A DNA stretch of 64,000 bases, taken from positions 23,767,654 through 23,831,653 of the forward strand of contig NC_091931.1 of NCBI RefSeq assembly GCF_041260155.1. The letters run 5' to 3'. Positions 1,596 through 63,696 of this stretch are shown here, piece by piece. Each line of letters starts with the position of its first letter. Position 1 is the first letter of the stretch. Under the pieces are notes generated by a model. The model was given only the letters and a program-made list of their open reading frames with translations, made no database searches and was not told the origin of the DNA. Both the position numbers and the translations under genes were made by a program. The stretch is from Ptychodera flava (lineage: Eukaryota > Hemichordata > Enteropneusta > Ptychoderidae).

Positions 1596-3857
1596 AGGAC
1601 GTTGAATATGAGTCAGTTGTTAGGAATGGGCGCTCCACTTTCGTACGGGCCATTTGCAGTCGTGTACGGTATCCAGGCCATGTCCTGGAAACGGGGCGAT
1701 AGAATACGTTACGGGGAACATACACTTATTATGACCGGGGTGAAAGTTAATATGTCTCCTTGTAGAATGATGAACCCTCCACACACCCAAATAATTACTA
1801 CCCCTCACTTTCAAAAGATAAAATTGACAATTAAAACTCCCTTGTCGAAATTTACCTTTAGCATCCATAGTACATAATTTACAAATATCAGTAAATTGTT
1901 GGGGTTTGCGTTGTAAGTTGCTTTCAAGGCGGTAATGATACGAACCACTCCCTCGAAAACGATCCACATGTGACATGAAACTTCAACATATATACACATT
2001 AGGTGGAGCTGCACGTTGTCAACACAGTTTTTTTTCTTCAAAAGAATATTTCTCATGTAAGATGACAAGGACATCCCCTCATACTATATATTTTCAAAAA
2101 GCAGAGACTCTAAAGTTTACTATGGTAGCTATAGTTTACTTGAAGAATGAAGGGGTGTATATTTTGGGTAAACTTCATACCATTCTCTGAAATGTAATAA
2201 TTCACTTGAAACAAGAATATGTGTAGGAAAGAAAGACTATTTTATTTTGCATTATCTATCCTCATTCTAAAATGCATGGGTTGAAAGACTGACACTCAAA
2301 AAAGTAATTAAAAACATGATTAGCAAAATTAAAATGCCTCTTATTCAAAATGTAAGAAATTTATCGCCAAAAAATAGTAATTTTGTTAAATTGCATTTAA
2401 AGAACATAATGCAAAAATTTAAGAAAATCTGACCCAGCCAGAGTTGAGTTAAATTCTTTGGATATCTTGAAATTGGAAGAAAAGAGAAGCCACAGGAAAT
2501 CGAATGATTTGCATACATATTTGCGTAAAGTAACACTTCTTTATCACTCAACTTACGACTGCTTATGGCTAAAAAGTGAACCCATTCAATATTCTAATCT
2601 TTGGTTAACAAATTAATAACAATTGAGTACAATATTTGTAAAAAAATGAGTTTGAGCAAAACACGCTGTGTTGGGAAAAGCGCCCTCATAAGTAAATATT
2701 GACGTACTGTCAGACCAGGCTGAGGCCACGAATGAGGGCGCGCTGTAATTTGAAAGCACTATTTCAGGTAGAATGTACCTCCAGGATAGACTTTCGGGAT
2801 CTCAATTTTTTTCAATACTTTTCTGATCTACCACTTGTAGGGGCTCTTGGAGTAAAAAAAATAATCATCTCATTTCTTCGAAAATCGAGAATTTATTTTT
2901 TTTCCCTATAGAGTCAATACAGAGGGATCTCACGGCTGCAATTTTTCGATTTCAAACATCGCTAAATATTAGGTAATTTGTTTCTCTGGTACCAAACTGA
3001 GTACATTGACCCCGATTTGTATTCTTGATATAGTAAGAGAAGGGTTGCTAATTTCATAAAGGAATGTTTGAGCAAAATTTGAAGTCTTTCACTTTTGTGG
3101 CGCTTACTGCCTGGAAGGAAATTTAAGTTTTACTACCTATTTTTCGCATTTTTACTTCTACTTACAATGTACGTTTTACTGAACACTATTTGAACTAATT
3201 TGGGAGAATTGGATCTTTCACTTTTTCAAATCTATCAAAACTGTTAGGTGCCCTATAGCTGAAAGTTGCAATATTAAAAACTACCCATCAAAACAAGTGT
3301 ATTGCAAAAAAAGAAAAAGCAGATGAGCTTACATTTGCAGATTAACCCTTTGAGCATGTTGAGTGCTGTTATTTTTCCCATCAAGATTTTGTTGCAACAT
3401 TTTCCCTAGTTTTGTTAATTTTCTATTATTTTTTGGATAATTGTGGACCAAATGGACATCACATTTCATTGGCTGCAGTTTTTTATCAATATTTAGGCAA
3501 AAATCTGAAAAAATTGAATAGGGAATATTTTTAAAGGTGACAAAAATTGACATTGGCGTTCAAAGGGTTAAAGCAACTTTACTTCACTATCCAATTACCC
3601 CCAATTAGTTCCAATATTGTTTCTCACAATACGGTGCCACAATTCTGTGTGTGAGAACATAGACATCGACAAGATATACACGATTAGTTTGGGTATAACT
3701 AGACTGTCGACAGTCCCTAGTCCCTTGTCTTATCTATTATTGATATGGTCTCTCGCACATACGGGGTAGGGGTGGGGGTCTGCAAGCATAGCGCAGATGG
3801 CGCGAGGTATCAATGCTGCAGGCATGACCCTGAGTGTCGAAGGCACGGGGTACTGTT
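1596..3857. other. No gene recognised; extra DNA in the left duplicate
   Basis: This stretch is absent from the right duplicate at the equivalent point (about 57920). It is AT-rich with only short frames and no recognisable protein motif. A sequence like the right copy (CCGCTGC...GGAAAACCCGGC) resumes at 3858-3905 and is then interrupted again. Confidence 0.5.
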
Positions 3858-4053
3858 CTGAGCCGCTGCCTTCTCGCTGACAACAGCAGGGAAACCCCGG
3901 CCTGTCAATCGTAACCTAACGCAGAGATAGCGGGAGTACGCGCGTTAGGGAGTTCTGTCATCTGGTTGCAAATATGTCATGTGGTTGCTGGCTATGACAC
4001 ACCCATATTTGGTTATGTTTCGATATCAAAGGTCAGAGTTGAAAGTCCAAGCA

Positions 4054-4628
4054 TGGGCACAGGCGACCCAATAAGTTCTGAGTTTTTCACACTGTTTTCT
4101 CTATCATTTTCTCTTCTTTCTCCATGCTCTGAATGATCGGAATAAATAAAATAAATGGTTTATATAACCTAACCTAGCCTCTGTGACTCTTTATTTATTT
4201 TACACTCCATTACAAGGACATATATCTCTCATACACACATGCTGTAATTAATTAGTCAACACAACTAATTATGCTAATCCGTGGACTTATCAGGGATTTT
4301 ACGGGTTGGTCAACATCGCGGAAGATAGGAATGGTTACTAAAACTCCTTTTTCATTAACATCACTATCTTTCCGATGTTGACCAACCTCTGATAAGTCCA
4401 CGGATTAGCATAATTAGTTGTGTTGACTAATTAATTACAGCATGTGTGTTTGAGAGATATACGTCCTTGTAATGGAGTGTAAAATAAATAAAGAGTCACA
4501 GAGGCTAGGTTAGGTTATATAAACCATTTATTTTATTTATTCCGATCATTCAGAGCATGAAGAAAGAAGAGAAAATGATAGAGAAAACAGTGTGAAAAAC
4601 CCAGAACTTATTGGGTCGCCTGTGGCAT
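4054..4628. mobile_element. Foldback element with ~260-bp inverted arms
   Basis: Positions 4054-4313 and 4371-4628 are near-perfect reverse complements around a loop of about 57 bases. Landmarks inside the arms are GAATGATCGGAATAAATAAA on the left and its complement on the right. There is no coding content. The close arm match suggests recent insertion or arm homogenisation. It lies inside the DNA that is extra in the left duplicate. Confidence 0.8.
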
Positions 4629-5520: not shown

Positions 5521-5619
5521 GTAGGCTAAATATGTTCGTCTTTATTGCCAATGTGTTCTGCTGTATAAGCTTTTATAAATTAATTCATATGTATCCTGTA
5601 TAATTCCTGTGTATCTATT

Positions 5620-8115
5620 GGTTTTCAACTTTCTATGCTATCACAAACTGATTTAATTTGTCTAATCAAAACTTTTTGCAGAATCTGCATTTGGAGCATG
5701 CTGAGTCACAATGTGTCACCTGGTTGCACGGACACTCTGTTGCATCTCTCTTAGTGTGCTATGGCTGTTACTTCTAAGTTTTCTCATTGGTTTTCATCTT
5801 TCTATGCTATCACTAATTGATTTAAGTTGTCTAATCTAAATTTTTTGCAGCAACTGCATTTTTTGTATACTGAGTCACAATGTGTCACCTGGTTGCATGG
5901 ACACTCCGGCGCATAACTCTTAGTGTGCTATGGCTTTTACTTCTAAGTTTTCTCATTGGTTTTCATCTTTCTATGCTATCACTAATTGATTTAAGTTGCC
6001 TAATGTAAAGTTTTTCAAGGAACTGCATTTTTTGTATGCTGAGTCACAATGTGTCACCTGGTTGCACGGACACTCTGGTGCATCTCTGTTACTGTGCTAA
6101 GGCTGTGACTTCTAAGTTTTCTCATTAGTTTTCATCTTTTTATGCTATCACTAACTGATTTAAGTTGTCTAATCAACACTTTTTGCAGGAACTGCATTTT
6201 TCATATGCTGAGTCACAGTGTGTCACCTGGTTGCACGGTTACTCTGGTGCAGCTCTGTTACTGTGCTAAGGCTGTGACTGCTAAGTTTTCTCATTGGTTT
6301 TCATCTTGTTATGCTATAACTAACTGATTTAAGTTGTCTAATCAACACTTTTTGCAGGAACTGCATTTTTTGTATGCTGAGTCACAATGTGTCACCTGGT
6401 TGCACGGTTACTCTGGTGCATTTCTGTTACTGTGCTAAGGCTGTGACTTCTAAGTTTTCTCATTAGTTTTCATCTTTTTATGCTATCACTAATTGATTTA
6501 AGTTGTCTAATGTAAAGTTTTTCAAGGAACTGCATTTTTCGTATGCTGAGTCACAATGTGTCACCTGGTTGCACAGACACTCTGGTGCATCCCTCTTACT
6601 GTGCTAAGGCTGTGACTGCTAAGTTTTCTCATTGGTTTTCATCTTTTTATGCTATCACTAATTGATTTAAGTTGTCTAATCAACACTTTTTGCAGGAACT
6701 GCATTTTTTGTATGCTGAGTCACAATGTGTCACCTGGTTGCACGGTTACTCTGGTGCATTTCTGTTACTGTGCTAAGGCTGTGACTTCTAAGTTTTCTCA
6801 TTAGTTTTCATCTTTTTATGCTATCACTAATTGATTTAAGTTGTCTAATGTAAAGTTTTTCAAGGAACTGCATTTTTCGTATGCTGAGTCACAATGTGTC
6901 ACCTGGTTGCACAGACACTCTGGTGCATCTCTCTTACTGTGCTAAGGCTGTGACTTCTAAGTTTTCTCATTGGTTTTCATCTTTTTATGCTATCACTAAT
7001 TGATTTAAGTTGTCTAATCAACACTTTTTGCAGGAACTGCATTTTTTGCATGCTGAGTCACAGTGTGTCACCTGGTTGCACGGTTACTCTGGTGCATTTC
7101 TGTTACTGTGCTAAGGCTGTGACTTCTAAGTTTTCTCATTAGTTTTCATCTTTTTATGCTATCACTAATTGATTTAAGTTGTCTAATGTAAAGTTTTTCA
7201 AGGAACTGCATTTTTCGTATGCTGAGTCACAATGTGTCACCTGGTTGCACAGACACTCTGGTGCATCTCTCTTACTGTGCTAAGGCTGTGACTTCTAAGT
7301 TTTCTCATTGGTTTTCATCTTTTTATGCTATCACTAATTGATTTAAGTTGTCTGATCTAAAATTTTTGCAGGAACTGCATTTTTTGTATGCTGAGTCACA
7401 ATGTGTCACCTGGTTGCACGGTTACTCTGGTGCATCTCTGTTACTGTGCTAAGGCTGTGACTGCTAAGTTTTCTCATTGGTTTTCATCTTTTTATGCTAT
7501 CACTAATTGATTTAAGTTGTCTAATCAACACTTTTTGCAGGAACTGCATTTTTAATATGCTGAGTCACAACGTGTCACCTGGTTGCATGGACACTCAGGC
7601 GCATCTCTCTTAGTGTGCTATGGCTATGACCTCTAAGTTTTCTCAGTGGTTTTCATCTTTTTATGCTATCGCCAACTGATTTAAGTTGTCTAATCAAATG
7701 TTTTTGCAGAATCTGCATTTTTCATATGCTGAGTCACAATGTGTCATCTGGTTGCACTGACACTCTGGTGCATCTCTCCTAGTGTGCTATGGCTGTGACT
7801 GCTAAGTTTTCTCATTTGTTTTGCTCTTTTTATACTATTACAAAGTGATTCAAAATCAAAATTTAATGCAATCGTCTGCTTTAGGAGTATGCTGAGTCAC
7901 AATGTGTCATCTGGTTGCACGGAGTCATGTGGTACATCTCTCTTTCCCTTATAAGGCTTTGTCATCTACGTTTCTTCTTGGTTTTGCTCTTTTTGTGCTA
8001 TTAAAAAGTGATTCAAGTTTTCAAATCAAAATTTTATGCAGGAATCTGCTGTTAGATCATGCTGAGTCAGAATGTGTCACCTGGTTGCACAGAGACTTTG
8101 CAGTGGTATAAAACT
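5620..8115 (+). repeat. 169-bp tandem satellite, about 15 units
   Basis: The landmark CTGAGTCACAATGTGTCACC recurs at 5701, 5870, 6039, 6208, 6377, 6546, 6715, 6884, 7053, 7222, 7391, 7560 and 7729, always 169 bases apart, then more diverged at 7892 and 8062. The middle units alternate between two variants (TAATGTAAAGTTTTTCAAGG and TAATCAACACTTTTTGCAGG), giving a 338-base higher-order dimer. Each unit carries TTTTTGCAG or a relative, followed by a short open stretch containing AESQCVTWLHG. Confidence 0.95.
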
Positions 8116-12600: not shown

Positions 12601-12939
12601 GTTACTTGTTGTAATCTTGAATTGTTGAAATGAATAAAATCTTGGAAAGTAAAACATGATGCTGTGTCACTGTTGTTCCTGTTTTGTTTCACCATCAGAG
12701 AAAAAAAAGATTCTAATAAATTCACACCCCATTGTTCTACCAAAACAGAAAAATTATTGACATTTTTCAGGCAAAACACGCGACGTCTCACCAGTAATAC
12801 TTGTAAGTTCAAAGCAACTCTGCATAACATGTTCGGACGAGAGAGTTGACCATAGAGGGCGTACGTCCTACTGGTACTTGTGTGACAGGCTTGCAACCAC
12901 ATGACATACTCCGGGTGCGCGCGTACTGGTGTACAGAAC
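9604..12939. other. No gene recognised; AT-rich with G/C homopolymer tracts
   Basis: This is part of the roughly 11-kb excess in the left duplicate. It has no supportable coding exon. Between about 11590 and 12500 there are repeated short phrases around poly-G or poly-C tracts (for example TGGGGGGGGG, CCCCCCCCCC) and three copies of a phrase like CACCAGACTGCAT near CTCAAAATTT. These suggest old, diverged tandem or mobile DNA. Confidence 0.45.
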
Positions 12940-13250
12940 GCAGAGGAAATGATTGTGAAGCGGGTCGTAGGTCAGACGGTCATTGCATGGCTAGCTGGAA
13001 AAAACGGGTCAGCCAAAACAACGGCGCTAAGTAAGGGCCAGAACAACTGACGTCCAAGTAGGAAAATAAATTACTGTCGCTTGGATAAGCGCTGGATCGA
13101 ACCTGCGCGATCTTGCGCTGTGTTTGTCTGAAAGAAGTTGAAAGGTCGTTTCTGAATTATATGCATACATTTCTGGATACAGCGCGCATTTTACAGCCGC
13201 AGCCCGAGTAGAGCCTATGTTCTCAAACTCAAGAGAATCCACACATTATA
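12940..13250. repeat. Left copy of segmental duplication, block 2
   Basis: This aligns to about 57965-58280 (shared landmarks GGGTCGTAGGTCAGACGGTC and AAGTAAGGGCCAGAACAACT). It ends in TTATA, the target site of the following insertion. Confidence 0.8.
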
Positions 13251-13865: not shown

Positions 13866-14795
13866 TTATATGACCTCACTTGCACTTATGAACTCTATGC
13901 AAATTTCTTCCTTGACCTCCACCCTGTTCTCGGCGTCATATCTCATGAATATTAATATCAAGGCAAACCATGCAAAACAGTCCCTCGTGCCTTCGGACTC
14001 ACAGTTATGCCTGCGGCATCCCCCATCCCGTGTGTACGAGAGGCTATACCAATAATAGAAAAGAAAAGGCACAAGGGACTTTCGACAGTTACATTTCAAA
14101 GTCACTGACTCATTGATTAGTCACAGAAAACCGGCACTGGACAACTCTGTCTGATAGCAAAATAGTTTTTTAAACTGACGGTGTATCTGTTTATAGTAAA
14201 AACTTCGGCTTAGAGTTAGGAGCTGAAGCTAAAACTGTCTCACACACAGAGTTGATGCACCGAACTGAAACCCGGTGTACGTTATAAACTTGCCAAAACT
14301 TTTATTGGCTTTTTTATATTGCCTTTATGTTACGACTGCTGCGCCATCACCCCGAGGAGGCCAAATGCCCCTTTTGCCATGGAGTGTACAGTATCTGCGG
14401 TACACCGGTTTGAATAGAATACTGCCAAACAAAGTGTGAAATGAGAGTTGCACATGCACAACATGTACAGCATGGGCCGTTGACCAAATGGCAATTTGTT
14501 ATCATGGCAGCTGGACATTTACTTTCGTCCTAATTATTATACTCTAGTAAGAAAAGAACTCCTTAACAAAAGCGCGGGCTTTACTATTCATGTAGCTTCA
14601 TTAAAGTGTCCAACTTATACATCTGCCACATACCTATCATGGTATTTCCTCCGGAACGTCTGTCAAAAAGAAATCATGGTGGATATTGTGGACGATTTCA
14701 GGCGGGATGAATTCGACCTGAGTTTGAGAGAACAGGACTTTCACTTTCGAGGCGTATATGCCTTAACAACAGTTCATTATCTACAATATTCAATG
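13866..14795. repeat. Left copy of segmental duplication, block 3
   Basis: This aligns to about 58278-59365. It includes a short shared sub-element bounded by CAGTCCCTCGTGCCTT and AGGCACAAGGGACTTT (about 13977-14092), itself an inverted-repeat remnant older than the duplication. A conserved stretch near 14680-14760 (GGACGATTTCAGGCGGGATG) is open in both copies, but I do not recognise it. Confidence 0.75.
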
Positions 14796-20365: not shown

Positions 20366-21512
20366 AGACACTCAACCGGCCCCTCTAGGCAGGAAATCAG
20401 TCGTCGACAATGACATTGGGTCTCAAACACCCTACAGGCTGTGTTGATAAGTTAAACATCGACCGTTTAGACTTGACTTTGCAGTAGTTTATTTCAGAAC
20501 ACAGTTATAAATTTGTGTTTTTATACTACGATTCTTTTTCCGGTCACACGCCCTCTGGCGGCAATTAGTGATAGATCTTGCTCTGAATGGCAACATGTGT
20601 ACTCGTCACGGTACAAATACGGGAGCTTAGAGAAATAGTATAATTGCACACATCAAATTCACCAAACCTTGACTTCTCATAATAAACAGTAATTGTACAT
20701 TTATTTTATTTTCCTGATGTTATACAGAATATGGTTGTTAGAACCGTTTACATGTAGTAAACCTTTATTAGTACGTATCGAGAATAAATCTATGATGTGA
20801 ACAACAAACAGAGAGGGGAATAAAAGCATAAATGCAAACACAAAGTTTGAGGGCGGTCTACAGTACACCTTCAATAATATCGAACACAGTGTACTTTACC
20901 ACTATACCAACGGTATTAGCAATCGTGGTTATCAAAAGTAGTATTAATGTCGGAAGCATTTAGATAACATGTACAAGATTGACCCCTTGTTAAAGTGTCG
21001 CAAGAATAAACGTAGAGCGTTCAGTATCACAAAGGGCAAAATCAGTGTTGGAGGCACACCTGTCGCCAGCTCGATAAAGGTACCGTTACAGACGTTTGAT
21101 GTTTTCGAAAATCAGAACATACCACGGAAAATGTAATCAACGACCACCGCATAGTGCAAAAACACGCAGCATAAAAACAGGGTTCCTTTTCGTGCACGTA
21201 AAAGATTAATCGTACTGCTGCAGATACTAACTATATGAATTCTGATTACGCTTGCACAGGGCCCTCCATGTAGAGACCAATTAGAGCCCAATGCCCTAAC
21301 TTGAATAACATCCGCAAGCAATCTGACTGATGACGATATTCAAATCACCACACGCCCTCAACGGCTAAGTATAAGCGTACTGAAGTCAAAGTCATTGGAG
21401 CGAGAGTTTCGTTATAGGAGGAGCTACTTTGACTCTAACGTCTGGTGTAGAAGATGTTAACGCTCCTGGTAGCCGCTCGGTCAATGTAAATTCTTAATCG
21501 AGTCCTTGACCG

Positions 21513-21556
21513 TTAAAATCCTACCACTGCAGCCAAAACCATGATCGCCACCAAAA
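21513..21556 (-). CDS. Copy A exon 5: hydrophobic C-terminus
   Basis: It follows the acceptor TTTTTTCTCGTCTGCAG, completes a split valine codon and reads LVAIMVLAAVVGF then stop. A second possible acceptor 45 bases upstream (TTTTTTCAG before 21601) would add 15 residues in frame. The internal site is preferred because it is kept in all three paralogues. Confidence 0.65.
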
Positions 21557-21834
21557 CTGCAGACGAGAAAAAATATAACATCAATGATATCAGTGATACG
21601 ACTGAAAAAATGGGTCCTCAGAATTCTAGAAACGCAATGAGCCTTATTTTCTTCAAGCCCTTGCACCAAAAACTTTGCAGCGAAGATTTTCATTCTAAAT
21701 GCTTCTCATATTTTCAATCAGTGGTATATATGTGCCGTAACATTGTTGCCTTATTTGTGCAGTGTACATTCGTTTATTTATACATCCATGAATTCATTAA
21801 TTCTTTAATGTATTTATTAATGCATTTATGCACT

Positions 21835-21838
<4 letters not shown>

Positions 21839-21906
<68 letters not shown>
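21839..21906. repeat. (CT)n microsatellite
   Basis: Uninterrupted CT dinucleotides in intron 4 of copy A. The same repeat sits at the equivalent place in copy C (60990-61066). Confidence 0.98.
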
Positions 21907-21908
<2 letters not shown>

Positions 21909-22049
21909 GTAAACTCTTCATTTTTGCCCTGTTCTTGTAACTGGTTTCTCTCTCTCTCTCTTTCTGGTCTGAAATCACACGTTACTAGTCATTTCTTCTC
22001 AGAAGCAAAAAGATCACTCTTTAGTCTTCGTGACGGTCACAGTATCTGT

Positions 22050-22086
22050 ACGCGGGCACCGTCCCTCCACGGGACTGTGACGCGGG
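22050..22086. mobile_element. 23-bp palindromic micro-insertion with 7-bp target duplication
   Basis: The insert is 22057-22079, with arms CACCGTCCC and GGGACTGTG around TCCAC. ACGCGGG stands immediately before (22050-22056) and after (22080-22086). The equivalent place in copy C reads GCGTGCGGGTTT with no insert. Confidence 0.75.
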
Positions 22087-22204
22087 TTTAAAAACCTGAT
22101 CGCTTTCGTCGATTTTCTTTCTCCTCAAATATAAAACAAGGATTATTTTTTTCTTGTAGAATCGGCAAAGATATACCCATGAAACTTTTTTCAATAATCC
22201 CTAC

Positions 22205-22474
22205 CTGAAAGTTTATCAGATACGTTGATTGTGGCGCCTGCGCCAACGCCGTGATCTTCATGCGACTCGGATGACGAATGTTCGTGTGACTCGGATGACG
22301 AATGGTCGTACTCGTGTGACTCGGACGACGAATGTTCGTGTGACTCGGACGACGAATGTTCATGTGACTCGGACGAAGAATGGTCTGGTTCACCGGCGAT
22401 GATGTCATCAGTGCTGCTGAAATCAACTTTTGTTGTTGAGGCCCTTGGCAGATCCGCGTGTTCAGTGCACGTTC
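22205..22474 (-). CDS. Copy A exon 4: SSSESHE-repeat linker
   Basis: A 270-base exon, acceptor CACCACAG and donor GTAGGG, entering with two bases of a split codon and leaving with one. It encodes TCTEHADLPRAS, then VDFSSTDDIIAGEPD, then five units of the type HSSSESHE (one with YD inserted), then GVGAGATINVSDKLS. The Ser/Glu/His repeats are likely extracellular, flexible and possibly metal-binding. GAGA followed by about ten polar residues and the hydrophobic exon 5 resembles a GPI attachment signal. A second frame is also open across the repeat but does not fit the splice phase. Confidence 0.7.
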
Positions 22475-22713
22475 CTGTGGTGAAAAACGATAGATCGTAT
22501 ATTGTTTTGAACAAATCTTATGGAAAAGGTTTCCTGACAGGTAGCTCCTCAAAATGTTAAGGACTATGTGTAATTAGTCATGCATTACTAGTTATATTTT
22601 CATACAAAAGAAATTAAACTACATGGTACGACATTTTGATTTGTGTCGTTGCAGTCACTGCACAGGCATGCCACTTATTGTTCACGACAGAAAAGATTGG
22701 TCGACGTGGCAGT

Positions 22714-22715
<2 letters not shown>

Positions 22716-22777
<62 letters not shown>
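22716..22777. repeat. (CT)n microsatellite
   Basis: CT dinucleotide run upstream of exon 4 of copy A, shared in position with 61885-61936 in copy C. Confidence 0.98.
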
Positions 22778-22780
<3 letters not shown>

Positions 22781-23085
22781 ATTGATAGAAAAGGGCGAAC
22801 TATATCGTCATTTAGCGTTGCCGTGAAGATCACATCGCGGGTACCGGCTGGCGCTCTCGCTCTCCTATTCGTTACTGCTGCTTTACTGTTTTGATGGTGT
22901 CGTAATACGTACAACCGTTCAAACTAAGATGCGTTCGGGTCATAATAAAGTCGAGAACGAAACCACAAACGGAAGAGACGTAATCGGCAACGCTAACATA
23001 TTTGCAAATGAAGTTGCGCGCAACTTATATCTTGAACGTTCCCCGGTGAAGATTCAAGCCATTGACAAATTATCAATCTGGTACA

Positions 23086-36870: not shown

Positions 36871-39800
36871 CTGCAAACAAGAAATAATGCAATATCAGCA
36901 ATTTTGATAACATGAATGAAAAAGAATTCATACTCAGAAACACTAAGACATTCAAATTCCTCTGGCCCGTCTGCCGAAAACTTTGTCCAGCCAAGGTCTG
37001 CCGATACCGGATACACCTCATCCATTGTAAAAGGCGCTTAAATAAAATTCTTTCTTTACCGCCCGCGTGCTGGTAGGTTTTCAGAGAAATTAAGGAAAAA
37101 AAACACAATGTCAATACTATTACAAAAAATATTTTTTACCAAGAGAAACCAAATCAAACATGAGCTTATCTTAATACACTTGTGATTTTTGTCCATGTTT
37201 TCTTTAACCTGCCTGGCTGGTAGGTTTCTCGAAATCCAAGGACGGCAAACAAAGAATTTTCTTTAGATGGCCTAAGTGTAAATGTGCTGTTACCGTTTGC
37301 CTTCTTATTTATTTTTATTTATTTATTTATTTATTTGAATCAGGCTCTAGGCCCATAGAAAAATACCATAAAATAAAGAAAAATAACAGATACACACAAA
37401 AAATCATCTATACAGAAAAAAAACTTCAGTATAAAATAGTTCGCCAGTGCCTGCACTGTAGTGAGTCAATATATGTACAAGCATAAATAGTCTTAATATA
37501 AGAATTCTGAGATCTCTTAATTCTGTTCATAAAGTTAAAAATGTTTTTACGCAGTAACTCGCCAAAAGACAAAACATCATAGACAACAAACATGGTACTA
37601 ATACTACAACGTCTTGACAGATTAAAAAGTCGTCTGAAACAATTATTATACGCCACTCGAATTTTCGTTAGAGAGCGCTTTGTAAAGGTGGACCAAAGCT
37701 GGCAGCAGTATAAATTTGAGCAAAATGATTTAAATAATCTGGTTTTCACCTGTATAGAACAGTAAGCAAACTTCCTGAAAAGAAAGTTACCACGAATATA
37801 CAATAGCCGCATTTGTCTGTTAATGTCATCGTCATCGTTGAAAGAGCTAATTATAAAACACCCAAATACTTGTACGAGTGGACAAAAGAAAGCTTCATAC
37901 CACTAAGACAGATTTCAGGCATATTGATAAGTTTAAAACTATTGGGCATTACAATCATACATACAGTTTTCTTTTGATTATAAATGATATCATGTTCAGC
38001 ACCGTAAACCTCACAAATAAGAATAAGTTTTTGCAGGCCCTTGCTTGTCGGGCAAAAGATAACTAAATCATCAGCGTAACAAATATGATTAAGTCTTCTA
38101 CCACCAAAAAGACAGCCAACATTACAACTGGATAAACTATAGCTAAGTTCATCAATGTAAACATTGAAGAAAAGTGGCGAGAGAATGCCCCCTTGACGAA
38201 CACCGTTTAAAACATTAAATGCAGTAGATAGTGTAGATCCCCACCTGACGCACACTTGTTGAGATCTATACCAAAAAACAATCAGTCGTACGAATATTTC
38301 AGGAACTCCTCTCGATAAAAGCTTCTGAAAAAGTGTCCAATGATTGACACGGTCGAACGCCTTAGAGGCATCCATAAAACATAAAAACATGGGAGTTTTA
38401 TGTGTCTTATAAAACTGAATAACTTCCTTTAAGAGATAAATACATTGATCTGTAGAATGTTTAGCCTTAAAACCGAACTGGTTATCTGATGTATATAAAT
38501 ATGACTCGATATAAGTTAACAAGACATTTTCAAAAATCTTAGAAAATACAGATGACAACGCAATGGGTCGATAATTGCCCTTATCAGCTATATCACCGGC
38601 CTTATCTTTGATAATAGGCACCAAAACAGTAGAAATCATACTAGAAGGTAAATAACCATGTAACAAACAAGCATTGAAAATAATGGTCAGAAGTACAGCA
38701 AGTCTATGACTAGAATACAGTATATGTTCAGATGAAATACCATCAGGACCGCAAGCTTTACTCTTTTCCAACTTACTGACAGCATTCCTAATATCATTAA
38801 CAGAAAACATTTTATGGGAGCCATTGAGCTGAATATTCGACAATTGTTCTTCAACAAATGACTTATTACTCTCTGTCTTAACAGAAGAGTACAAATCTTT
38901 AAAATGGCTATACCACATGTTAGCTATGTCTTTATGTCCCGTAGCTCCCCCGACTGTATTGGCAAGAGGCACCCGACTAGACGCTTGTTGTTCTACATGT
39001 TTCCAGAATTGAATGTCGTTCTTATTGATTAAATCTGAAGCAAGAGCATCTGCTCTAGTTGTACGCTCATTGTTTTTACACCAACGCAGAGCATATTTAA
39101 AATGGGCTCTGGTAGTCTGCATCCTGCGAATATATGACCTTGCTTAGGCTTTGAAAAGCTCATCCAGAGTTTAAAAGCAAATCTAGCTTCATCATGGGCA
39201 GTCTTAACAAATTCATTCCATCCAGGAATATTAAAATTTCTCTTTGTTTTCGAATGAGGAATATTCATCTCAGCTGCCTGAGCGAGACTCTGTACAACAT
39301 TGCTATACAGCAAATCAATATCATTATGATGGTTGGTATTGTTACAATTAACATCAGTACAATGTAAAAGATGGGAAGGTATGACAAGTTCGTTAAGCAA
39401 ATCATCACAATTTAAGCGATATGCTTCAATATGGTGTTCGTTGGCAAGATGCCATTTACAGCAACTTACATGATTGTCAGAATCAAGATCAAAATGCGGG
39501 AGGCTACCAGTATTGATAGAAATACACAGAGGAAAATGGTCCGAAGTATGAAAATCATGAAGAATGGAAATATAGAAATGGCATTGTGACCCTGAAAAGT
39601 TGATAAACAGTGATCAAGCCAGGATGTGGTGGCATGAGAATCACTGAAATAAGTGAAATGGTCTCCAACATCTAAAAGCTTAACATCTGAGAGTACATAA
39701 TTATGATCAGTACAAAAAGACTTGAGTTCATTACCAAAAGAGCTGTTTTTGTTAACACAAGCATTCCAGTCTCCCACAATATATGCACATGGGGTATTAC

Positions 39801-45800: not shown

Positions 45801-46850
45801 TTATCAACCGATGTCGATCGACCGCTCACTACTGTTGCCACCACGACGTTTTGACATGGACCGAATCTGGGCGCTGGTTTGAGTTGTACAAATGGGGACA
45901 TTTTTGTAAAGTGATGCTGTTCAAGTAGATACTACTAGAATGGAAGTAGTTCAGAAATGCAGGCGAATGCCTTTTTTCGTGAGCAGAGCAGCCAGCTGTA
46001 GAAATGGAGCAGGGGACCAGACTAGTTCGAAGGTTACTGTATCTCGGACATATGTCAGATGCGTGAAGTTCTATATAAGCTAGCGGTTCACTTACACTGT
46101 CACCGGGCATGTTCATTTTACCTTGGTTGTAAAACGTCTTAACGGACGTGGAGAACCCATCATTGATACACATCACCCCGTTGTCGGTGCCCTGCGTCAA
46201 AAATGGAAAGACATTTCAAAAGAAAAGTACTTTTATTTGACACAGACAAACAAGTCTACGTGTTACAGAGACGATACGGCAGGTGATAAGCTCATAATTG
46301 TGTATTAGCGTAAGGGAAATTTAAACAAGAAAAATGCACAATTACGATAATTGCAATATCATGATCATGCAGGCACCATGAACTGATTATAATGATATGT
46401 GGTTACGGGCATGATTCAGCATTTCATTTTTAAATTATCACGGACTAATTCCTAAACTGAAGCTTGCGATTGACACGTATGACTTACTGTCAATTTTCGG
46501 TTTGTTATGCAGATATCGTGCAAATTGTCACTTTAATAATATCTCAACGGATGAACGATTTTCATTTCCAGGGCGGCTGATCAAACTCTCACCATCTTTT
46601 TGTCGTAAGAAAACGCGACGGCTATCCAGCCTTCGCTATTTGTTCGTTCCCCAACGATCTCAAAGTCAACGTTGCCACCATTCTCCTTGTACGAGAGGAA
46701 AAAGTCGCACGCTTCTGCGCTCGGGTCGCAGTGCTCCGGGTCCGAGTAGCATGCTTTGCTGGTTCCACAACCAGTCCTGTTGATCGCAGTGCCGTTGGCC
46801 ATCACGGCAAAACATATCATCAAGCAGACACTTTGTAGACTAGACTCCAT
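36827..46850 (-). CDS. DOMON-domain protein, probably GPI-anchored, copy B (complete)
   Basis: Five exons on the minus strand: 46593-46850, 46096-46191, 41992-42139, 40873-41043 and 36827-36870. Together they give 717 bases, 238 residues plus stop, with every splice GT-AG and in phase. A signal peptide (MESSLQSVCLMICFAVMANG) leads into an FRRS1-like DOMON domain (exons 1-3: GCGTSKACYSDPEHC, then KM-GTDNGVMCINDG, then KFFDLTMDFYLLMGTGPCSGG). An acidic/Ser/His linker with SSSSSESHE follows, then LVAVMVLATVIGL at the very C-terminus. DOMON domains bind haem or sugars. FRRS1 also has reeler and cytochrome b561 regions, which are absent here, so this is a DOMON-only surface protein and reductase activity is not expected. 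Intron 4 carries a LINE; intron 3 carries two repeat arrays or elements. Paralogues lie at 21513-26532 and 60663 onwards. Confidence 0.8.
37851..39122 (-). pseudogene. LINE ORF2 reverse transcriptase segment
   Basis: A 423-codon open stretch with reverse transcriptase blocks in order: KACGPDGIS, YRPIALSS, FLCFMDASKAFDRVNH, NGVRQGGILSPLFF, ICYADDLVIF (catalytic YADD) and YKYLGVL. It begins and ends at frameshifts. Continuation after the last one (37426-37812, another frame) encodes a CR1-like C-terminal region with KIRVAYNNCFRRLF. Confidence 0.9.
39466..40241 (-). pseudogene. LINE ORF2 APE-type endonuclease segment
   Basis: Starts MIGGLNIASFNCKNV, with IVLLQETWL, HGGLGILWRK and IILNVYMPCD, then, after a one-base shift near 39840, YIVGDWNACV and a TSWLDHC block. 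These are the endonuclease/exonuclease/phosphatase motifs of CR1-type LINEs. The shifts show the copy is dead. Confidence 0.85.
40873..41043 (-). CDS. Copy B exon 4: short Ser/His linker
   Basis: 171 bases with acceptor CATCACAG and donor GTAGGG. Encodes RCSQHESLPKAS, VDFSSTDDINAGDPD, HSHSSSSSESHE and SATIDVSSTFS. It is 99 bases shorter than the equivalent exon in A and C, because the SSSESHE unit is present only once here. Confidence 0.78.
41188..41407. repeat. Fragment of a short element also seen at 59111
   Basis: ACTGAAAGATCCGTCGCTCG followed by AGGGCGCTC is shared with the 59111-59195 insertion. Here only the left end is recognisable. Confidence 0.5.
41408..41685. mobile_element. 278-bp miniature inverted-repeat element
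   Basis: The left terminus AAGTGAGCGTAATTCAATAA and the reverse complement of the right terminus match over about 34 bases with one or two differences. No coding content; a target duplication is not evident. It lies in intron 3 of copy B. Confidence 0.8.
41746..41896. repeat. Two ~70-bp tandem units
   Basis: GCATAGCGATCCCC, TACCCCGCCAACAGATAGCT and GCGTT recur in the same order at an interval of about 70 bases in intron 3 of copy B. Confidence 0.8.
41992..42139 (-). CDS. Copy B exon 3: end of DOMON domain
   Basis: 148 bases, acceptor CATTTGCAG and donor GTAATC, phase 0 in and 1 out. Encodes NGLSDMSIAANNGIISCSF, then FFDLTMDFYLLMGTGPCSGG, matching the C-terminal strands of FRRS1-like DOMON domains (ISCSFTR and DL...YYL). 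Same length and borders as copy C exon 3. Confidence 0.82.
42300..43645. repeat. Diverged ~140-bp tandem array ending in ACAG repeat and hairpin
   Basis: AATATGCAAATTAGGAATTGGCT-type phrases recur about eight times at roughly 140-base spacing, with ATCCCTAATTA and AGCAAGTTTCATCAACTTTG between. The array ends with GAGATATCGGACTAACAGAC, an ACAG/ACGG repeat and the palindrome GCTCACGTGTGTAAACACGTGAGC-like stem near 43616-43640. No gene. Confidence 0.85.
44118..45244. mobile_element. 1.1-kb inverted-repeat element with TAA target duplication
   Basis: The left end GGGAGCCTTCAGTAATTACA and the reverse complement of the right end are identical for 30 bases, continuing with G-rich similarity. TAA flanks both sides (44115-44117, 45245-45247). 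A 3-base TAA duplication is typical of PIF/Harbinger elements. The interior has no transposase but holds about two and a half ~180-bp tandem units (44640-45060) and C-tracts. Non-autonomous. In intron 2 of copy B... more exactly between its exons 2 and 3. Confidence 0.85.
45248..46095. other. Intron 2 remainder of copy B; nothing recognised
   Basis: No repeat or exon is recognised between the TAA-flanked element and exon 2. Confidence 0.5.
46096..46191 (-). CDS. Copy B exon 2: DOMON core
   Basis: 96 bases, acceptor GACGCAG and donor GTAAGTG, phase 0 to 0. Encodes GTDNGVMCINDGFSTSVKTF then YNQGKMNMPGDS. Joined to KKM from exon 1 it gives the KMGxDxVxxC motif characteristic of DOMON domains. 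Confidence 0.82.
46593..46850 (-). CDS. Copy B exon 1: signal peptide and first half of DOMON domain
   Basis: Start at 46850; MESSLQSVCLMICFAVMANG is a signal peptide. The mature part has NRTGCGTSKACYSDPEHCDP, FFLSYKENGGNVDFEI and IAVAFSYDKKM, then the donor GTGAGAG in phase 0. An upstream in-frame ATG at 46988 would put about 46 residues before the signal peptide and is therefore unlikely. Confidence 0.82.
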
Positions 46851-47384
46851 GGTAGACGCTGCTGTTGGATTCTGTTGAGAAAGCAAATGACACGTCACAC
46901 ACGTCAAGTTTGCAGCCGAAATTTTGCCATCGTCACGAGCACTGTACGCTCGCCACCGGACAGCAGCGTCCAAATCTAGGAAAAGCAAAGCACATTATGG
47001 TCTCGTAATCAGCAAGCGACGGTGTTTCGAAACAGGGGCTATTTTTTAAATTTATAATTTTATTTCAGTATACTAATACTTATAAAGGGAGATGTAGTCG
47101 GAACTGTGCTTAAAGGTCTTGTGGACCCATATGACCAATTTAAACACTGTATGCAATTGAGGTACGTTTGGATCCACAATGGCCAAATTAATGTCCATAA
47201 TGTGCATCGTAAAATGTCGCTGCTATGCTGACTTGCATCTAGATATCGTGCAACGAAGAAGTATATAATTGTTGTCAACAAGAGAGCCACACAAGTGAAG
47301 TTCCGACGACCCCTTTCCTTTAAATGCAATCCGCCCTTACGGTAGAGATGTCGACATTGTGAGATATACAAAGCAAAAACATTG
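46851..47384. other. 5' flank of copy B, no clear promoter motif
   Basis: Would hold the 5' UTR and promoter of copy B. It contains an AT-rich stretch near 47040-47070, but nothing I would call a TATA box with confidence. Confidence 0.4.
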
Positions 47385-49001: not shown

Positions 49002-49040
49002 TCCTAATCACAGTCCCTCGTGGAGGGACCGTGTCCTAAT
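49002..49040. mobile_element. 25-bp palindromic micro-insertion with 7-bp target duplication
   Basis: The insert is 49009-49033, with arms CACAGTCCCTC and GAGGGACCGTG around GTG. TCCTAAT stands immediately on both sides (49002-49008, 49034-49040). Confidence 0.75.
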
Positions 49041-57104: not shown

Positions 57105-59110
57105 TGTAAAGTTGATTGGTTTATAGTTACAACTTCAAGCGAAACCGTATGCTGACAAGTATGTCAGTGCGACTACTAAACAACTTGCAAAATCAGGTCA
57201 TCGCATTGTACATATGATGGCCTCAGATGACCTTTGATGGCCTCAATGACGTTTGATACATGTATCTAACCATGGAGATACGTCCTGATCTAACTAAGTA
57301 AAAAAGATCCCCTTTTTTCTCCTTTATCCAAACAAACTCTCAATCCTCACAGAACTCACTGAACTTGCCATGAACAGTCCTATGCACGATAAAGGGGTCA
57401 CAACAATATTAACGAACGTCTGTGTAACAGAAGGGAACGAACGGATTGGGAGATGTTTCCGGCTGAACGTGTCACCCTATGTAGGTCAAAGTTGAACTAG
57501 GGAATGCATAAGTTGCTTCACTGGTTTGTCTCATGCCCTAACCAAACTTTCAATAGTTAGGCCATCTCTGTTGTCATACTTGATCGTGTTACCGTAAATA
57601 GGTCAACCATATAATGATCAACAAAAGTTGCCTGGTGGTTTAATGCCCCGCCCCGTTTTACAAAAGTCAGGTCAAATCCATCCCCGATATCATGCTGAAC
57701 ATTATATGCTGTCATCGTTTAATGATATTACAGTCCCACGACGAGAAGTTAAATCAATCGTGCCGTTCGATTTGTTCAGAGCGAAATATCACTCCTGCAC
57801 CATTGTACCACAACAACGCCCATTGTGTTGCTCAACTTTGTCATTCTGATGTGTAACATACCGTATATATATCCAGGTCAACGGAAGGACCATGGTGAAA
57901 ATCAGAGGACAAAGCTCCACAAAGCCGCTGCGCCCTCGCCGTCAACATCAGGGAAAACCCGGCATGTCGGAAGCAGAGGAAATGATTGACAGGTGAATCG
58001 GGTCGTAGGTCAGACGGTCATTGCATGGCCAGCTGGAAAAAACGGGCCAGCCAAAACAACGGCCCTATAAGTAAGGGCCAGAACAACTGACGTCAAAGTC
58101 GGAAAGTAAATTGCCGTCGCTTGGATAAGCGCGTTTTCGAACCTGCGCGATCTGGCGCTGTGTTTGTCTGAAAGAAGCTGAAAAGTCGTTACTGGATTGA
58201 ATGCATACATTTCTGGATACAGCGCGCATTTTACAGCTCTAGCCCGATCCGCTTTTCTCAAACTCAAGAGAAATCAACATATTATATGACCTCCCTTGCA
58301 CTTATGAACCCTGTGCAAATTTCTTTCTTTTATCTCCACCCTGTTTGAGACGTCATATCTCATGAATAATTAATATCAAGGCACACCAAGCAATTAAGAA
58401 CAGTCCCTCGTGCCTTCGGACTCACAGTTATGCCTGCGGCATCCCCCACCCCGTGTATACGAGAGACTATACCAATGAAAGAAAAGAAAAGGCACAAGGG
58501 ACTTTCGACAGTCTATAGGTATCACCACACATTTCAAAGTCACTGACTCATTGATTAGTCACAGAAAGCCGGCACTGGACAACTCTGTCCGATAGCAAAA
58601 TAGTTTATTTCACTTGCATACAATGTAGCTGTTTATAGTAAAAAATTTCGGCTCAGAGTTAGGAGATATGATTTTTGCTGAAGCTAAAACTGTCTCACAC
58701 AGAGTTGTGGCACCGAACTGAAACCCGATGTACCTTATAAACCTGTCAAAACTTTTATTTGCTTTTTTCTATTGCCTTTAAGTTACGATTGCCGCTCCCT
58801 CGCCCCGAAGAGGCCAAATGCCCCCTTGCCATAAAGTGACTTATATACTGCAGTTGGTCATTGTATTCCCGGTATATAGGTTTGAATAGAATACTGCCGG
58901 ACAGCGGATAAAAATGAGAGTTGCACATGCACAACATATACAGTGTTGGCTCTAACCGTTGACCGATGGCAATTTGTTATCATGGCAACTAGACATTTAT
59001 TATCGTCCCAATTATTGTGCCAGCAAGAAAAGAACGAAAGAACATCTTCACAATGCCGGCTTTACTATTCACATAACTTCATCAAAGAGTCCAACTTATA
59101 CATCGGTCAC

Positions 59111-59195
59111 TAGACTGAAAGATCCGTCGCTCGAGGGCGCTCGTAGAGCCAGAGCGTCTGTCCTCAACTTGAAAGGGCGGATCTTTCAGTGTAAT
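59111..59195. mobile_element. Small inverted-repeat insertion, right copy only
   Basis: Ends AGACTGAAAGATCCG and CGGATCTTTCAGT are reverse complements. It is absent from the left copy near 14620. GTCAC occurs just outside both ends (TCGGTCAC, TTTGTCAC) and may be the target duplication. A related left end lies at 41188. Confidence 0.65.
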
Positions 59196-60662
59196 TTGTC
59201 ACATACCTATCATCGTATCTCCTGACCGACATTCCGAGATTTTTATCAAAAGGAATTGGTGGACATAGTGGACGATTTCAGGCGGGATGAATTCGACCTG
59301 GGTTTGAGAGAGCAGGACTTTCACTTTCGAGGCGCATATGCCTTACAGTTCATTATCTACAATATGTAATGTTATTCTTGGCAAATTACAGTCCGAATCA
59401 GATTAAGAGAAAAACTATTCCTAAATTTTGTCTCTTTGGAAGTCGAAAAAAATAGCATCAGTTGCCAGGTATTTGTAGTCTAGAGATTTTCTTAGTGGAG
59501 CCAGCTGTATAGGTGTTGGATCGATAGGTTCAAGAAATTTGTATATTGCCATACCGAGATTAATCATTATGTACGTAGATTGTGCGTTTCTTGCCGGACA
59601 CTCAACCGGACCCTCTAGGCAGGAAATCAGTCGTCAACAATGACATTGGGACATTGATAACTTAAACATCGACCATTCAGACGTGCCTTTTCTGTAGTTT
59701 ATTTCAAGAACAGAACACAGTTATAAATTTGCGGGGTTTTTTTTCCATAAAGATTCTTTTTCCGGTCACACGCCCTCTGGCGGCAAGTAGTGATAGATCT
59801 TGTTGTGAATGCCATCATGTGTCCTCATACGAATACGGGAGCTCAGAGAGGTAGTATAATAACACATATTCAACTCACAAAACTTTGATTTCTCATAACA
59901 AACAGTAATTGTACATTATTTTATTTTCCTGATGTTATACACAATATGGTTATTAGAACCGTTAGTTACATGTAGTAAACCTGTATCAGTACGTATCGAG
60001 AATAAATCTATGATGTGAACAGAGAGGGGAATCACATCATGAATGCAAACACAAAGTTTTAGAGCGGTCTACAGTACATCTTCAATAATATCGAACACAC
60101 AGTGCACTGTACCAACAGTATTAGCAATAGTGACAAGATTGACCCCTAGTTAAAGTGTTTCAAGAATAAAAGTATAGCGTTCTGTATCACACAGGGCAAA
60201 ATCAGCCTTGGAGGCACACCTCTCGCCAGCTCGATAAAGGTTCAGACGTATGATGTTTTCCAAAATCAGAACATACCATGGCACAGAAAATCTAATCAAT
60301 AACTACCGTATAGTGCCAAACATGGCGCATAGAAAGAGGGTTCGTGCACGTAAAAGTTTGATCGTACTGTTTCAGGTACTAACTATGAATTCTGATTATG
60401 CTTGCACATGACCCTCCACGTAGAGAACAATTGGAGTCCAATGCCCTAACTTGAATAACATACGCAAGCAATCTGACTGATGACAATATCAAAATCACCA
60501 CGCGACCTCAACGGCTAAGTATAAGCGTACTGAAGTCAAAGTCATTGGAGCGAGAGTTTCGTTATAGGAGGAGCTACTTTGACTCTAACGTCTGGTGTAG
60601 AAGATGTTAACGCTCCTGGTAGCCGGTCGGTCAATGTAAACTGTTTATCGAGTCCTTTACCG

Positions 60663-60706
60663 TTAAAATCCTACCACTGCAGCCAAAACCATGATCGCCA
60701 CCAAAA
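60663..60706 (-). CDS. Copy C exon 5
   Basis: Acceptor TTTTTTCTCGTCTGCAG; 44 bases completing a valine codon, LVAIMVLAAVVGF, stop. Identical in protein to copy A. Confidence 0.72.
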
Positions 60707-60986
60707 CTGCAGACGAGAAAAAATATAACATCAATGATATCAGTGATACGATTAAAAAAAATGGGTCCTCAGAATTCTAGAAACGCAATGAGCCTTGTTT
60801 TCTTCAAGCCCTTGCACCAAAAACTTTGCAGCGAAAATCTCCATTCTAAATGCTTATCATACTTTCAATCAGTTGTATATATGTGCCGTAACATTGTTGC
60901 CTTATTTGTGCAGTGTACATTCGTTCATTTATACATCCATGAATTCATTAATTCTTTAATATATTTATTAATGCATTTATGCACTA

Positions 60987-61069
<83 letters not shown>

Positions 61070-61882
61070 GTAAACTCTTCATTTTTGCCCTGTTCTTGTA
61101 ACTGGTTTCTCTCTCTCTCTATCTTTCTGGTCTGAAATCACATGTTACTAGTCATTTCTTCTCAGAGGCAAAAAGATCCCTCTTTAGTCTTCGTGACGGT
61201 CACAGAAGCTGTACGGCGTGCGGGTTTAAAAACCTGATCGCTTTCGTCGATTTTCTTTCTCCTCAAATATAAAACAAGGCACCGTCCTGGAGGGACGGTG
61301 AACAAGGATTATTTTTTTCTTGTAGAATCGGCAAAGATATACCCATGAAGCTTTTTTCAATAATCCCTACCTGAAAGTTTATCAGATACGTTGATTGTGG
61401 CGCCTGCGCCAACGCCTTGATCTTCATGCGACTCGGATGACGAACGTTCGTGTGACTCGGATGACGAATGGTCGTACTCGTGTGACTCGGACGACGAATG
61501 TTCGTGTGACTCGGATGATGAATGTTCGTGTGACTCGGACGAAGATTGGTCTGGTTCACCGGCGATGATGTCATCAGTGCTGCTGAAATCAACTTTTGTT
61601 GTTGAGGCCCTTGGCAGATCCGCGTGTTCAGTGCATGTTCCTGTGGTGAAAAACAATAGTTCGTCTTATATTGTTTTGAACAAATCTTATGGAAAAGGTT
61701 TCCTGACAGGTAGCTCCTCAAAATGTTAAGGACTATGTGTAATTAGTCATGCATTACTGGTTATATTTTCATACAAAAGAAATAAAACTACATGGTATGA
61801 CATTTTGATTTGTGTCGTTGCAGTCACTGCACAGGCATGCCATTTATTGTTCACTACTGAAAAGATTGGTCGATATAGCAGT

Positions 61883-61939
<57 letters not shown>

Positions 61940-63696
61940 ATTGATAGAAAAGGGCGAACAATATCGTCATTTAGCGTCGCCGTGAAGATCACATCGCGGG
62001 TACCGGCTGGCGCTCTCGCTCTCCTATTCGTTACTGATGCTTTACTGTTTTGATGGTGTCGTAATACGTACAACTGTTCAAACTAAGATGCGTTCGGGTC
62101 ATAATAAAGTCGAGAACGAAACCACAAACGCTAACATATTTGCAAAAGAAGTTGCGCGCAACTTATATCTTGAACGTGCTCCGGTGAAGATTCAAGCCAT
62201 TGATAAATTATCAACCTGGTACCGTCATTATGAGATTTCTAAACTCATGAGGACTAAATGAAAATGCCGCATCAGTCACTTATTAAAGTATATAAACTAA
62301 ATTGGCGCTGAAAACAAAATCATCAGTAGAAATAACGCCGTTCGACTTTTTACCGTGAATGAATTTGTTTATCTTTTTTTCCTATAGCGCCGCGTCGTTT
62401 CAGATGATGGCTGTCACGTTTGAAGAATATTACTTAGTTGCTGTTGCAATTTCTGTGGTGGTTTAGTAGTGGTTCGAAGTACCGTGAATTGCAGAGAAAG
62501 GCATCAAAACGTTTGCCTTAGATAATCACATATTGTAATATGCTAGCTCGGTGTTCAAACAGGCTGTATGGACATTCAAGGACATGTGATGTACGTAATA
62601 TGTGACTTTAAAACCTGAAGCGAAATGGGAAATGATTACCGCCGCTGCAGGGCCCGGTTCCCATCAGCAAATAGAAGTCCATAGCCAAGTCGAAGAATCG
62701 AGGGTCGCCCGGCAGAGACTTGTCGCGCGTGAAGGAGCACGAAATGGTTTCATCTTCGACAGTGGACGAAACGTCCGACAATCCATCCTGCAAACAAAAC
62801 AAACAGTCGCGCTGAGTCAATGTACAATCATTAAGAGCGAGTTTTTAAAGGCAAGAAACACACCAAGGTAAAGACATACATGTACCTTAACGCATAGCAT
62901 ATGTCAAACGACTCTGTCACATTTTGAGATGAGGGTTGTACATGTACCGCTTGGATCATCTTAAATCATATCAAATGCGCACAATAGCACGGCTTTACTT
63001 CATTCTACCGTTGTTCACTGAAAGGTATTTTCCCTTTAATCATCTGTTTATATGTTTTGACTGTCTATTTTTAAGTCATTAATATGCCTCATACCAAAAG
63101 GTGCTGTAATACGAGGACATTTGTCCGTCATTCAAATAGGTGATCAGGTAAAGCGTAGACTGGGTTTAGTTCACTGTAGACACAGTCCCACAGTCCCTCA
63201 GCGTACAGCAGTCTACTGCTGTAGATAACTATTGATATTAGTCATTCAGACGCTTATGCCGGGGTAGCAGCATGCAAATTAGATACGGCTTGGTGGACAC
63301 TACCTTGTCTCTCTCTATACAGTGGCTGGCGCTTGCCAAACTTACTGATCATCAATGAGTGTATAGGATTTCACACGATGACCGAATGTCATACTGAGTA
63401 TGCAGTGGGTGTAGCATAGACCCTCGAGGATCTACGGTTTAAGCGTCAGTTCTCAACCCCTGGTTCTCGCACCAGTGCTTGCTGACATTGACCATGTACG
63501 TGATTTTCGTCCTTTCTTCTCCGTCGAAAGTTGTCTCCAGTTAATTATAAAGCTGGTAAAAAAACCTGCCTCTTTAAGAGGGCGGCTCACTTACCGTACC
63601 ACCAAGAATGCTGACGTGACCGTCGTTGTAAAAGGTCCGAACGGATCCGGACATACCCGACCCATCGCTGATACACATAACCCCACTGTCGTTGCC
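60663..63696 (-). CDS. DOMON-domain GPI-type protein, copy C (exons 2-5, exon 1 outside window)
   Basis: Exons 63595-63696, 62640-62787, 61371-61640 and 60663-60706 on the minus strand total 564 bases, 188 codons with stop, in phase throughout. Exon 2 reads GNDSGVMCISDG...RTFYNDGHVSILGGT. Exon 3 ends FFDLAMDFYLLMGTGPCSGG. Exon 4 carries five SSSESHE-type units. Exon 5 reads LVAIMVLAAVVGF then stop. The signal-peptide exon would lie to the right of the window. This copy looks functional in what can be seen. The optional upstream acceptor of exon 5 present in copy A has lost its AG here, leaving the conserved internal one. The role is presumably that of copy B: an extracellular, membrane-tethered haem- or sugar-binding protein. 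Confidence 0.78.
60990..61066. repeat. (CT)n microsatellite
   Basis: CT run in intron 4 of copy C, orthologous in position to 21839-21906. Confidence 0.98.
61273..61307. mobile_element. 21-bp palindromic micro-insertion with 7-bp target duplication
   Basis: The insert is 61280-61300, with arms CACCGTCC and GGACGGTG (perfect) around TGGAG. AACAAGG stands on both sides (61273-61279, 61301-61307). The left duplicate has one AACAAGG and no insert at the same point (near 22135). Confidence 0.8.
61371..61640 (-). CDS. Copy C exon 4: SSSESHE-repeat linker
   Basis: 270 bases, same length and borders as copy A exon 4. Encodes TCTEHADLPRAS, VDFSSTDDIIAGEPD, five SSSESHE-type units and GVGAGATINVSDKLS. 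Confidence 0.78.
61885..61936. repeat. (CT)n microsatellite
   Basis: CT run upstream of exon 4 of copy C. Confidence 0.98.
62640..62787 (-). CDS. Copy C exon 3: end of DOMON domain
   Basis: 148 bases, acceptor TTTGCAG and donor GTAATC. Encodes DGLSDVSSTVEDETISCSF then FFDLAMDFYLLMGTGPCSGG, about 60% like copy B exon 3 with the last 14 residues identical. Confidence 0.82.
63595..63696 (-). CDS. Copy C exon 2: DOMON core
   Basis: 102 bases, acceptor AATGCAG and donor GTAAGTG, phase 0 to 0. Encodes GNDSGVMCISDGSGMSGSVR then TFYNDGHVSILGGT; two codons longer than copy B exon 2. Confidence 0.82.

Follow-up and report, generated by a model that had tools for sequence, protein, structure and literature searches.

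Three short palindromic inserts of one sequence family, 21-25 bp long and each set between exact copies of a different 7-bp direct repeat, are present in the window, by which we mean the whole stretch of 64,000 nucleotides analysed here. We consider it probable, at roughly 75%, that each palindrome is the excision scar of a DNA transposon that was moved by a P-type transposase. In the scheme that we propose, a longer element with CACNGTCCCTCCAC... ends would have inserted at each site and produced a 7-bp target duplication. The P-type transposase would subsequently have excised the element by cutting 14 nt or more inside either terminus (the fly P transposase cuts at 17 nt), so that a long stretch of each end remained on the chromosome; end joining would then have united both remnants back to back, with a trimming of 0 to 6 nt per end. 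The anatomy probably reflects a known mechanism at work in a new transposon family. The parts of the three putative scars are as follows.

61273..61279, no strand assigned: left target duplication of scar 1, AACAAGG, 7 bp, with a single copy at 22135-22141 in the duplicate
61280..61300, no strand assigned: putative scar 1, CACCGTCC (8 nt, one end) followed by TGGAGGGACGGTG (13 nt, the other end)
61301..61307, no strand assigned: right target duplication of scar 1, AACAAGG, 7 bp
22050..22056, no strand assigned: left target duplication of scar 2, ACGCGGG, 7 bp
22057..22079, no strand assigned: putative scar 2, CACCGTCCCTCCAC (14 nt) followed by GGGACTGTG (9 nt)
22080..22086, no strand assigned: right target duplication of scar 2, ACGCGGG, 7 bp
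49002..49008, no strand assigned: left target duplication of scar 3, TCCTAAT, 7 bp
49009..49033, no strand assigned: putative scar 3, CACAGTCCCTC (11 nt) followed by GTGGAGGGACCGTG (14 nt)
49034..49040, no strand assigned: right target duplication of scar 3, TCCTAAT, 7 bp
22135..22141, plus strand: empty site of scar 1, the unoccupied single AACAAGG

The insert at 61280-61300, whose full sequence is CACCGTCCTGGAGGGACGGTG, reads exactly as the original prediction had claimed, with a copy of AACAAGG abutting it on either side. The term perfect palindrome used there is slightly loose, since the 8+8 arms are indeed an inverted repeat but the 5-base spacer between them is not palindromic. Related inserts had been announced at 22057 and 49009, and both are present: CACCGTCCCTCCACGGGACTGTG occupies 22057-22079 between two ACGCGGG, within the left copy of a large duplication, and CACAGTCCCTCGTGGAGGGACCGTG occupies 49009-49033 between two TCCTAAT, outside that duplication. 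With a sequence common to all three and 7-bp duplications that differ from site to site, the inserts form a family, as had been proposed.

This three-insert feature is real and statistically secure; the sequence shared among the inserts played no part in either of the two chance tests. A model-free scan for palindromes of 16-60 bp with abutting direct repeats of at least 5 bp, controlled by 30 block-Markov shuffles, returned five matches, and the three that carry a 7-bp repeat are exactly the three inserts. Repeats of 7, 6 and 5 bp were observed 3, 1 and 1 times, against shuffle means of 0.17, 0.43 and 2.13, respectively. The second control relied on the 735 palindromes of 16-40 bp that the real sequence of the window yields when nested placements are scored separately: an abutting repeat of at least 6 bp accompanies three of them and measures 7 bp in all three, whereas the longest repeat reached 6 bp when the flanks were displaced by 3, 5, 8, 11 or 15 bases. 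A chance origin is rejected on both counts, and the target duplications, claimed beforehand to be 7 bp long, are exactly so in three inserts out of three. The window contains 11 copies of the motif CACNGTCC itself, where 100 shuffles average 3.64. A less strict search, which accepted any CA...TG insert flanked by identical 7-mers, yielded nine matches (1.9 expected, 6 in the largest shuffle), namely the three scars, an insert at 63181 that is described below, and five others (4262, 4383, 43365, 57224, 57271) that do not look like members of the scar family; with 8-mers instead of 7-mers, one match was obtained (25563).

All 69 inserted bases are accounted for, with 0 mismatches, by two trimmed copies per insert of a single 14-nt end, CACNGTCCCTCCAC, in which N at position 4 is free; the idea that the inserts consist solely of two ends back to back is thereby upheld. 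Insert 1 is made of the first 8 bases of this end and then its first 13 in reverse complement; with a single best split in each case, the joints lie at 8+13 in insert 1, 14+9 in insert 2 and 11+14 in insert 3. The end was deduced from these same three inserts and the fit alone is not independent proof; the argument draws its weight from the sufficiency of one end, from joints that are different in three cases out of three and from arms that never exceed 14 nt. The six arms range from 8 to 14 nt, and all three joints are blunt. One arm is nearly whole in each insert (13 or 14 nt) and the other measures 8, 9 or 11 nt, which suggests that one end stayed nearly whole each time and that the other was trimmed. 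Because the three joints differ in place and in side, the events look independent of one another, and the bound of 14 nt on arm length, from which a long staggered cut may be proposed, is as expected of a fixed stagger. The arms differ from each other at position 4 in two of the three scars, a difference that the two distinct ends of a longer element could show.

A stretch present twice in the window, at 20973-23084 and 60133-62222 (BLAST pieces 90% and 93% identical, 300-base blocks 94-98% identical), makes it possible to look at sites with and without an insert. Scar 1 is found only in the right duplicate, and the alignment confirms the claim that the left duplicate, about 39 kb away, holds a single, unoccupied AACAAGG at 22135-22141; with no other gaps in the alignment around it, this is a clean empty site. 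Scar 2 is found only in the left duplicate. The right duplicate has no insert there, but its site (61205-61220) is not a clean empty one because five extra bases, GCGTG, stand inside the target between ACG and CGGG (ACG-GCGTG-CGGG, 5 bases more than a single ACGCGGG). Another repair event, or a change of unrelated origin, could have left them there. Each of the two scars being absent from the other duplicate, the notion that they are parts of a longer, fixed ancestral sequence is rejected. More broadly, a block at the right end of the window (57236-62222) matches 869-1580, 12936-13250, 13866-14623 and 20367-23084, in conserved order, with the pieces separated and at 81-93% identity, so that its matches are spread across the left third of the window.

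The insert at 63181 is likely a fourth, complex scar, for which the evidence is weaker than for the other three.

63181..63218, plus strand: candidate complex scar, 38 bp, between CTGTAGA at 63174-63180 and at 63219-63225

It consists of CACAGTCC and CACAGTCCCTC, that is one end twice in tandem, together with 19 nt of filler. The filler holds CAGTCTAC, an inverted copy of positions 63155-63162 in the left flank, and when the filler was shuffled 2000 times, 3% of the shuffles reached a match of this length. An end that is repeated and a filler that is partly copied from the flank recall the insertion class of fly P joints.

A longer element that could have given rise to the scars was sought through CACNGTCC...GGACNGTG ends, allowing at most 2 mismatches per 8-nt end, a length of at most 4 kb and at most 1 mismatch in the 7-bp duplication. 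The 64-kb window yielded no intact copy, complete with both ends and its 7-bp duplication, and the three scars were the only perfect matches. The five other matches are near chance: one has a total end mismatch of 2 and one duplication mismatch (0.25 expected) and the remaining four have a total end mismatch of 4 (1.5 expected). One of the four is a true element from a different family, a 567-bp foldback at 4058-4624 with 241-bp inverted arms that are 98% complementary, an 85-nt loop, a GCATGGG duplication of 7 bp and ends CACAGGCGACCC/GGGTCGCCTGTG, of which no second copy was detected in the window at E 0.01. We rejected it as the source of the scars because, compared by eye over its first 11 bases, it agrees with the scar end at 7 positions, whereas the Repbase rule given in PMC4455052 tolerates no more than 1 mismatch in 11 end bases. 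It does attest to the past movement, in this genome, of elements that have CAC...GTG ends and make 7-bp duplications. A repeat of 120-190 bp with inverted ends AGTCCCTCGTGCCTT/AAGGCACAAGGGACT, found at 13976-14090, 58399-58512 and, inverted, at 3703-3860, was likewise set aside as a relative: this repeat, with ends AACAGTCCCTCGTGCC, has 13 letters in common with scar 3 (BLAST E 0.25), no clear target duplication was seen around its copies, and the likeness is probably a coincidence.

Pfam gave no transposase domain, and in particular no THAP-domain DDE transposase of the kind that marks the P superfamily, among the 20 ORFs covered, out of 88 in the window (ORFs of at least 85 aa). The exact 11+3+11 form, a pattern that fits the spacing of scar 3 only, had 0 occurrences in viral_contigs and genome_contigs, both of which are poor in eukaryotes. 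Within titles and abstract openings of the papers listed by literature searches, we found no description of ultra-short palindromes as elements or as scars in a nuclear genome. Other features of the window include a tandem array at 5617-8100 (169-bp unit, about 13-15 copies), microsatellites, and a retroelement reverse transcriptase ORF of 423 aa at 37851-39122 on the minus strand, whose best relatives among the matches listed are 43-79% identical, the best of those listed being 60% identical over 95%. Also on the minus strand, a GIY-YIG endonuclease domain at 429-764 (Pfam E 9e-10) possibly comes from a Penelope-like element, and a weak match to the DOMON domain at 46584-46994, below the Pfam cut-off (E 0.0011), possibly marks an exon of a cellular gene. 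The microsatellites, the reverse transcriptase ORF and the GIY-YIG domain suggest that the DNA comes from a eukaryote, probably an animal.

Could the palindromes have travelled by themselves? The original prediction had named a transposase acting on bare ends as one possibility, and one may picture a palindrome of up to about 28 bp, made of two bare 14-nt ends, moved by a transposase acting in trans and self-limited by deletion of its centre during or after insertion. The different 7-bp duplications at three sites, the common sequence and the lack of a longer relative in the window all speak in favour of it, and an ancestral 28-bp perfect palindrome followed by asymmetric central deletions gives the same letters. 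If true, these would probably be the smallest transposable units in any nuclear genome. We nevertheless hold this to be unlikely. Every round of excision and end joining creates its own centre, whereas a mobile 25-mer should carry one centre everywhere; the centres found here are three different joints, as from separate excisions, and a separate deletion would have to be invoked for each. The difference between arms at position 4 in two of the three inserts tells against mobility as well, and, according to PMC7776569, terminal repeats are not enough for fly P transposase, which must also bind sites further inside the element. Less likely still is an extreme internal deletion of a longer element, with no staggered-cut excision, in which replication slipped, or gap repair was aborted, between the two inverted ends. 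Such a deletion leaves the same anatomy, and PMC2895639 presents repair synthesis that stops short and is completed by end joining as the usual outcome at a fly P break, but it does not predict that six arms should all be 14 nt or shorter, an outcome with a chance of about 2e-7 if arm length were uniform between 8 and 100 nt, which is an arbitrary assumption.

We give even less credit to the idea that some superfamily other than P, likewise making 7-bp duplications and cutting deep within its ends, left the inserts on excision; hAT7, Kyakuja and an undescribed superfamily are the candidates. Excision of hAT elements leaves hairpins on the flanks and is not known to leave a long end remnant, which tells against this reading. 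Both hAT7 and Kyakuja make 7-bp duplications and Kyakuja termini are CA..TG, as portrayed in the accessible text of PMC12730594; however, that text describes Kyakuja (KDZ) as devoid of terminal inverted repeats, and the ends of the scars are inverted repeats, so that Kyakuja is disfavoured despite its fit in duplication and termini. PMC7776569 describes so deep a cut as atypical for P itself, which weighs against invoking it for another superfamily. A Dada-type transposase, suggested beforehand alongside a P-type one, resembles the present case in its duplications of 6-7 bp, but it loses ground because Dada, in the part of PMC3706591 that describes it, is without terminal inverted repeats and inserts in small RNA genes; the window has no RNA gene matching Rfam at the gathering threshold. 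As for the capture of a hairpin at a break, it does not account for one sequence common to three sites.

Excision by a P-type transposase accordingly stands as our preferred explanation, although several observations run against it. Position 4 is variable beside arms that are otherwise invariant, which excision does not explain. The unoccupied counterpart of scar 2 is not a clean site, and joints are blunt in three cases out of three, against the use of microhomology in 21 of 22 comparable fly isolates without inserted bases. To find three or four scars in 64 kb and not a single intact copy is unexpected, and mildly unfavourable to the model, although such a ratio would fit a family that has died out. 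If they are scars, the palindromes would be readable fossils of a P-like transposon family: they would give its end sequence and suggest both the depth at which the enzyme cut inside the end (at least 14 nt) and the way the host joined the breaks, and they would be informative in a window from which the element itself is absent. The scar pattern could be used genome-wide to find such families even after the loss of all intact copies, and short palindromes with exact 7-bp flanks are otherwise open to being misread as miniature transposons.

The closest parallel comes from Drosophila. Fly P transposase is described in parts of PMC7776569 as making its cut in one strand at 17 bp into the terminal repeat of 31 bp, so that the broken chromosome retains 17-nt tails of both ends. 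Among 66 repair isolates from Rad51-deficient spn-A flies (PMC2895639 Table 1), 37 retained the 8-bp duplication on either side together with 8 nt or more of each end; 22 of these 37 had no inserted bases, and all but one of the 22 used short microhomology. One blunt fly joint is 12+13, the same layout as in the present inserts (PMC2895639 Table 1). P-element joints are thus built alike, from a duplication, at most 17 nt of each end back to back and the other duplication, and some hold inserts seemingly copied from the ends (PMC2895639). They differ from the present scars in having 8-bp duplications and 17-nt arms (7 bp and at most 14 nt here), in resorting mostly to microhomology where the scars are blunt, and in their end sequence (CATGATGAA... 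in Drosophila P, CACNGTCCC... in the scars). Galileo, a member of the P superfamily in Drosophila, has 7-bp target duplications in the portions available of PMC4168063 and PMC2775673, and copies with two TIRs in that of PMC3573991; it departs from the scars, as far as these partial accounts go, by its long terminal repeats and its preferred GTANTAC-like target, a motif that the three duplications here do not show. Excision scars of Galileo do not figure in these accounts. Zebrafish Pdre2 / THAP9 is P-type and active in excision, with short 13-bp terminal repeats but 8-bp duplications, according to excerpts of PMC10983969 and PMC7776569. A P-type transposase, one of the candidates named at the outset, is the best one on this evidence: duplication length and end-to-end product fit a source enzyme that may belong to the P superfamily or act like P. 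By analogy with these systems, the inserts most likely work like P-type excision scars, with duplications on both sides in three cases out of three, exactly 7 bp long as in Galileo (7-8 bp in P excision scars), with nothing but two outer ends between them, in arms of 8-14 nt (up to about 17 nt in P excision scars) on an end deduced from the inserts themselves, and with a joint that varies from one event to the next.
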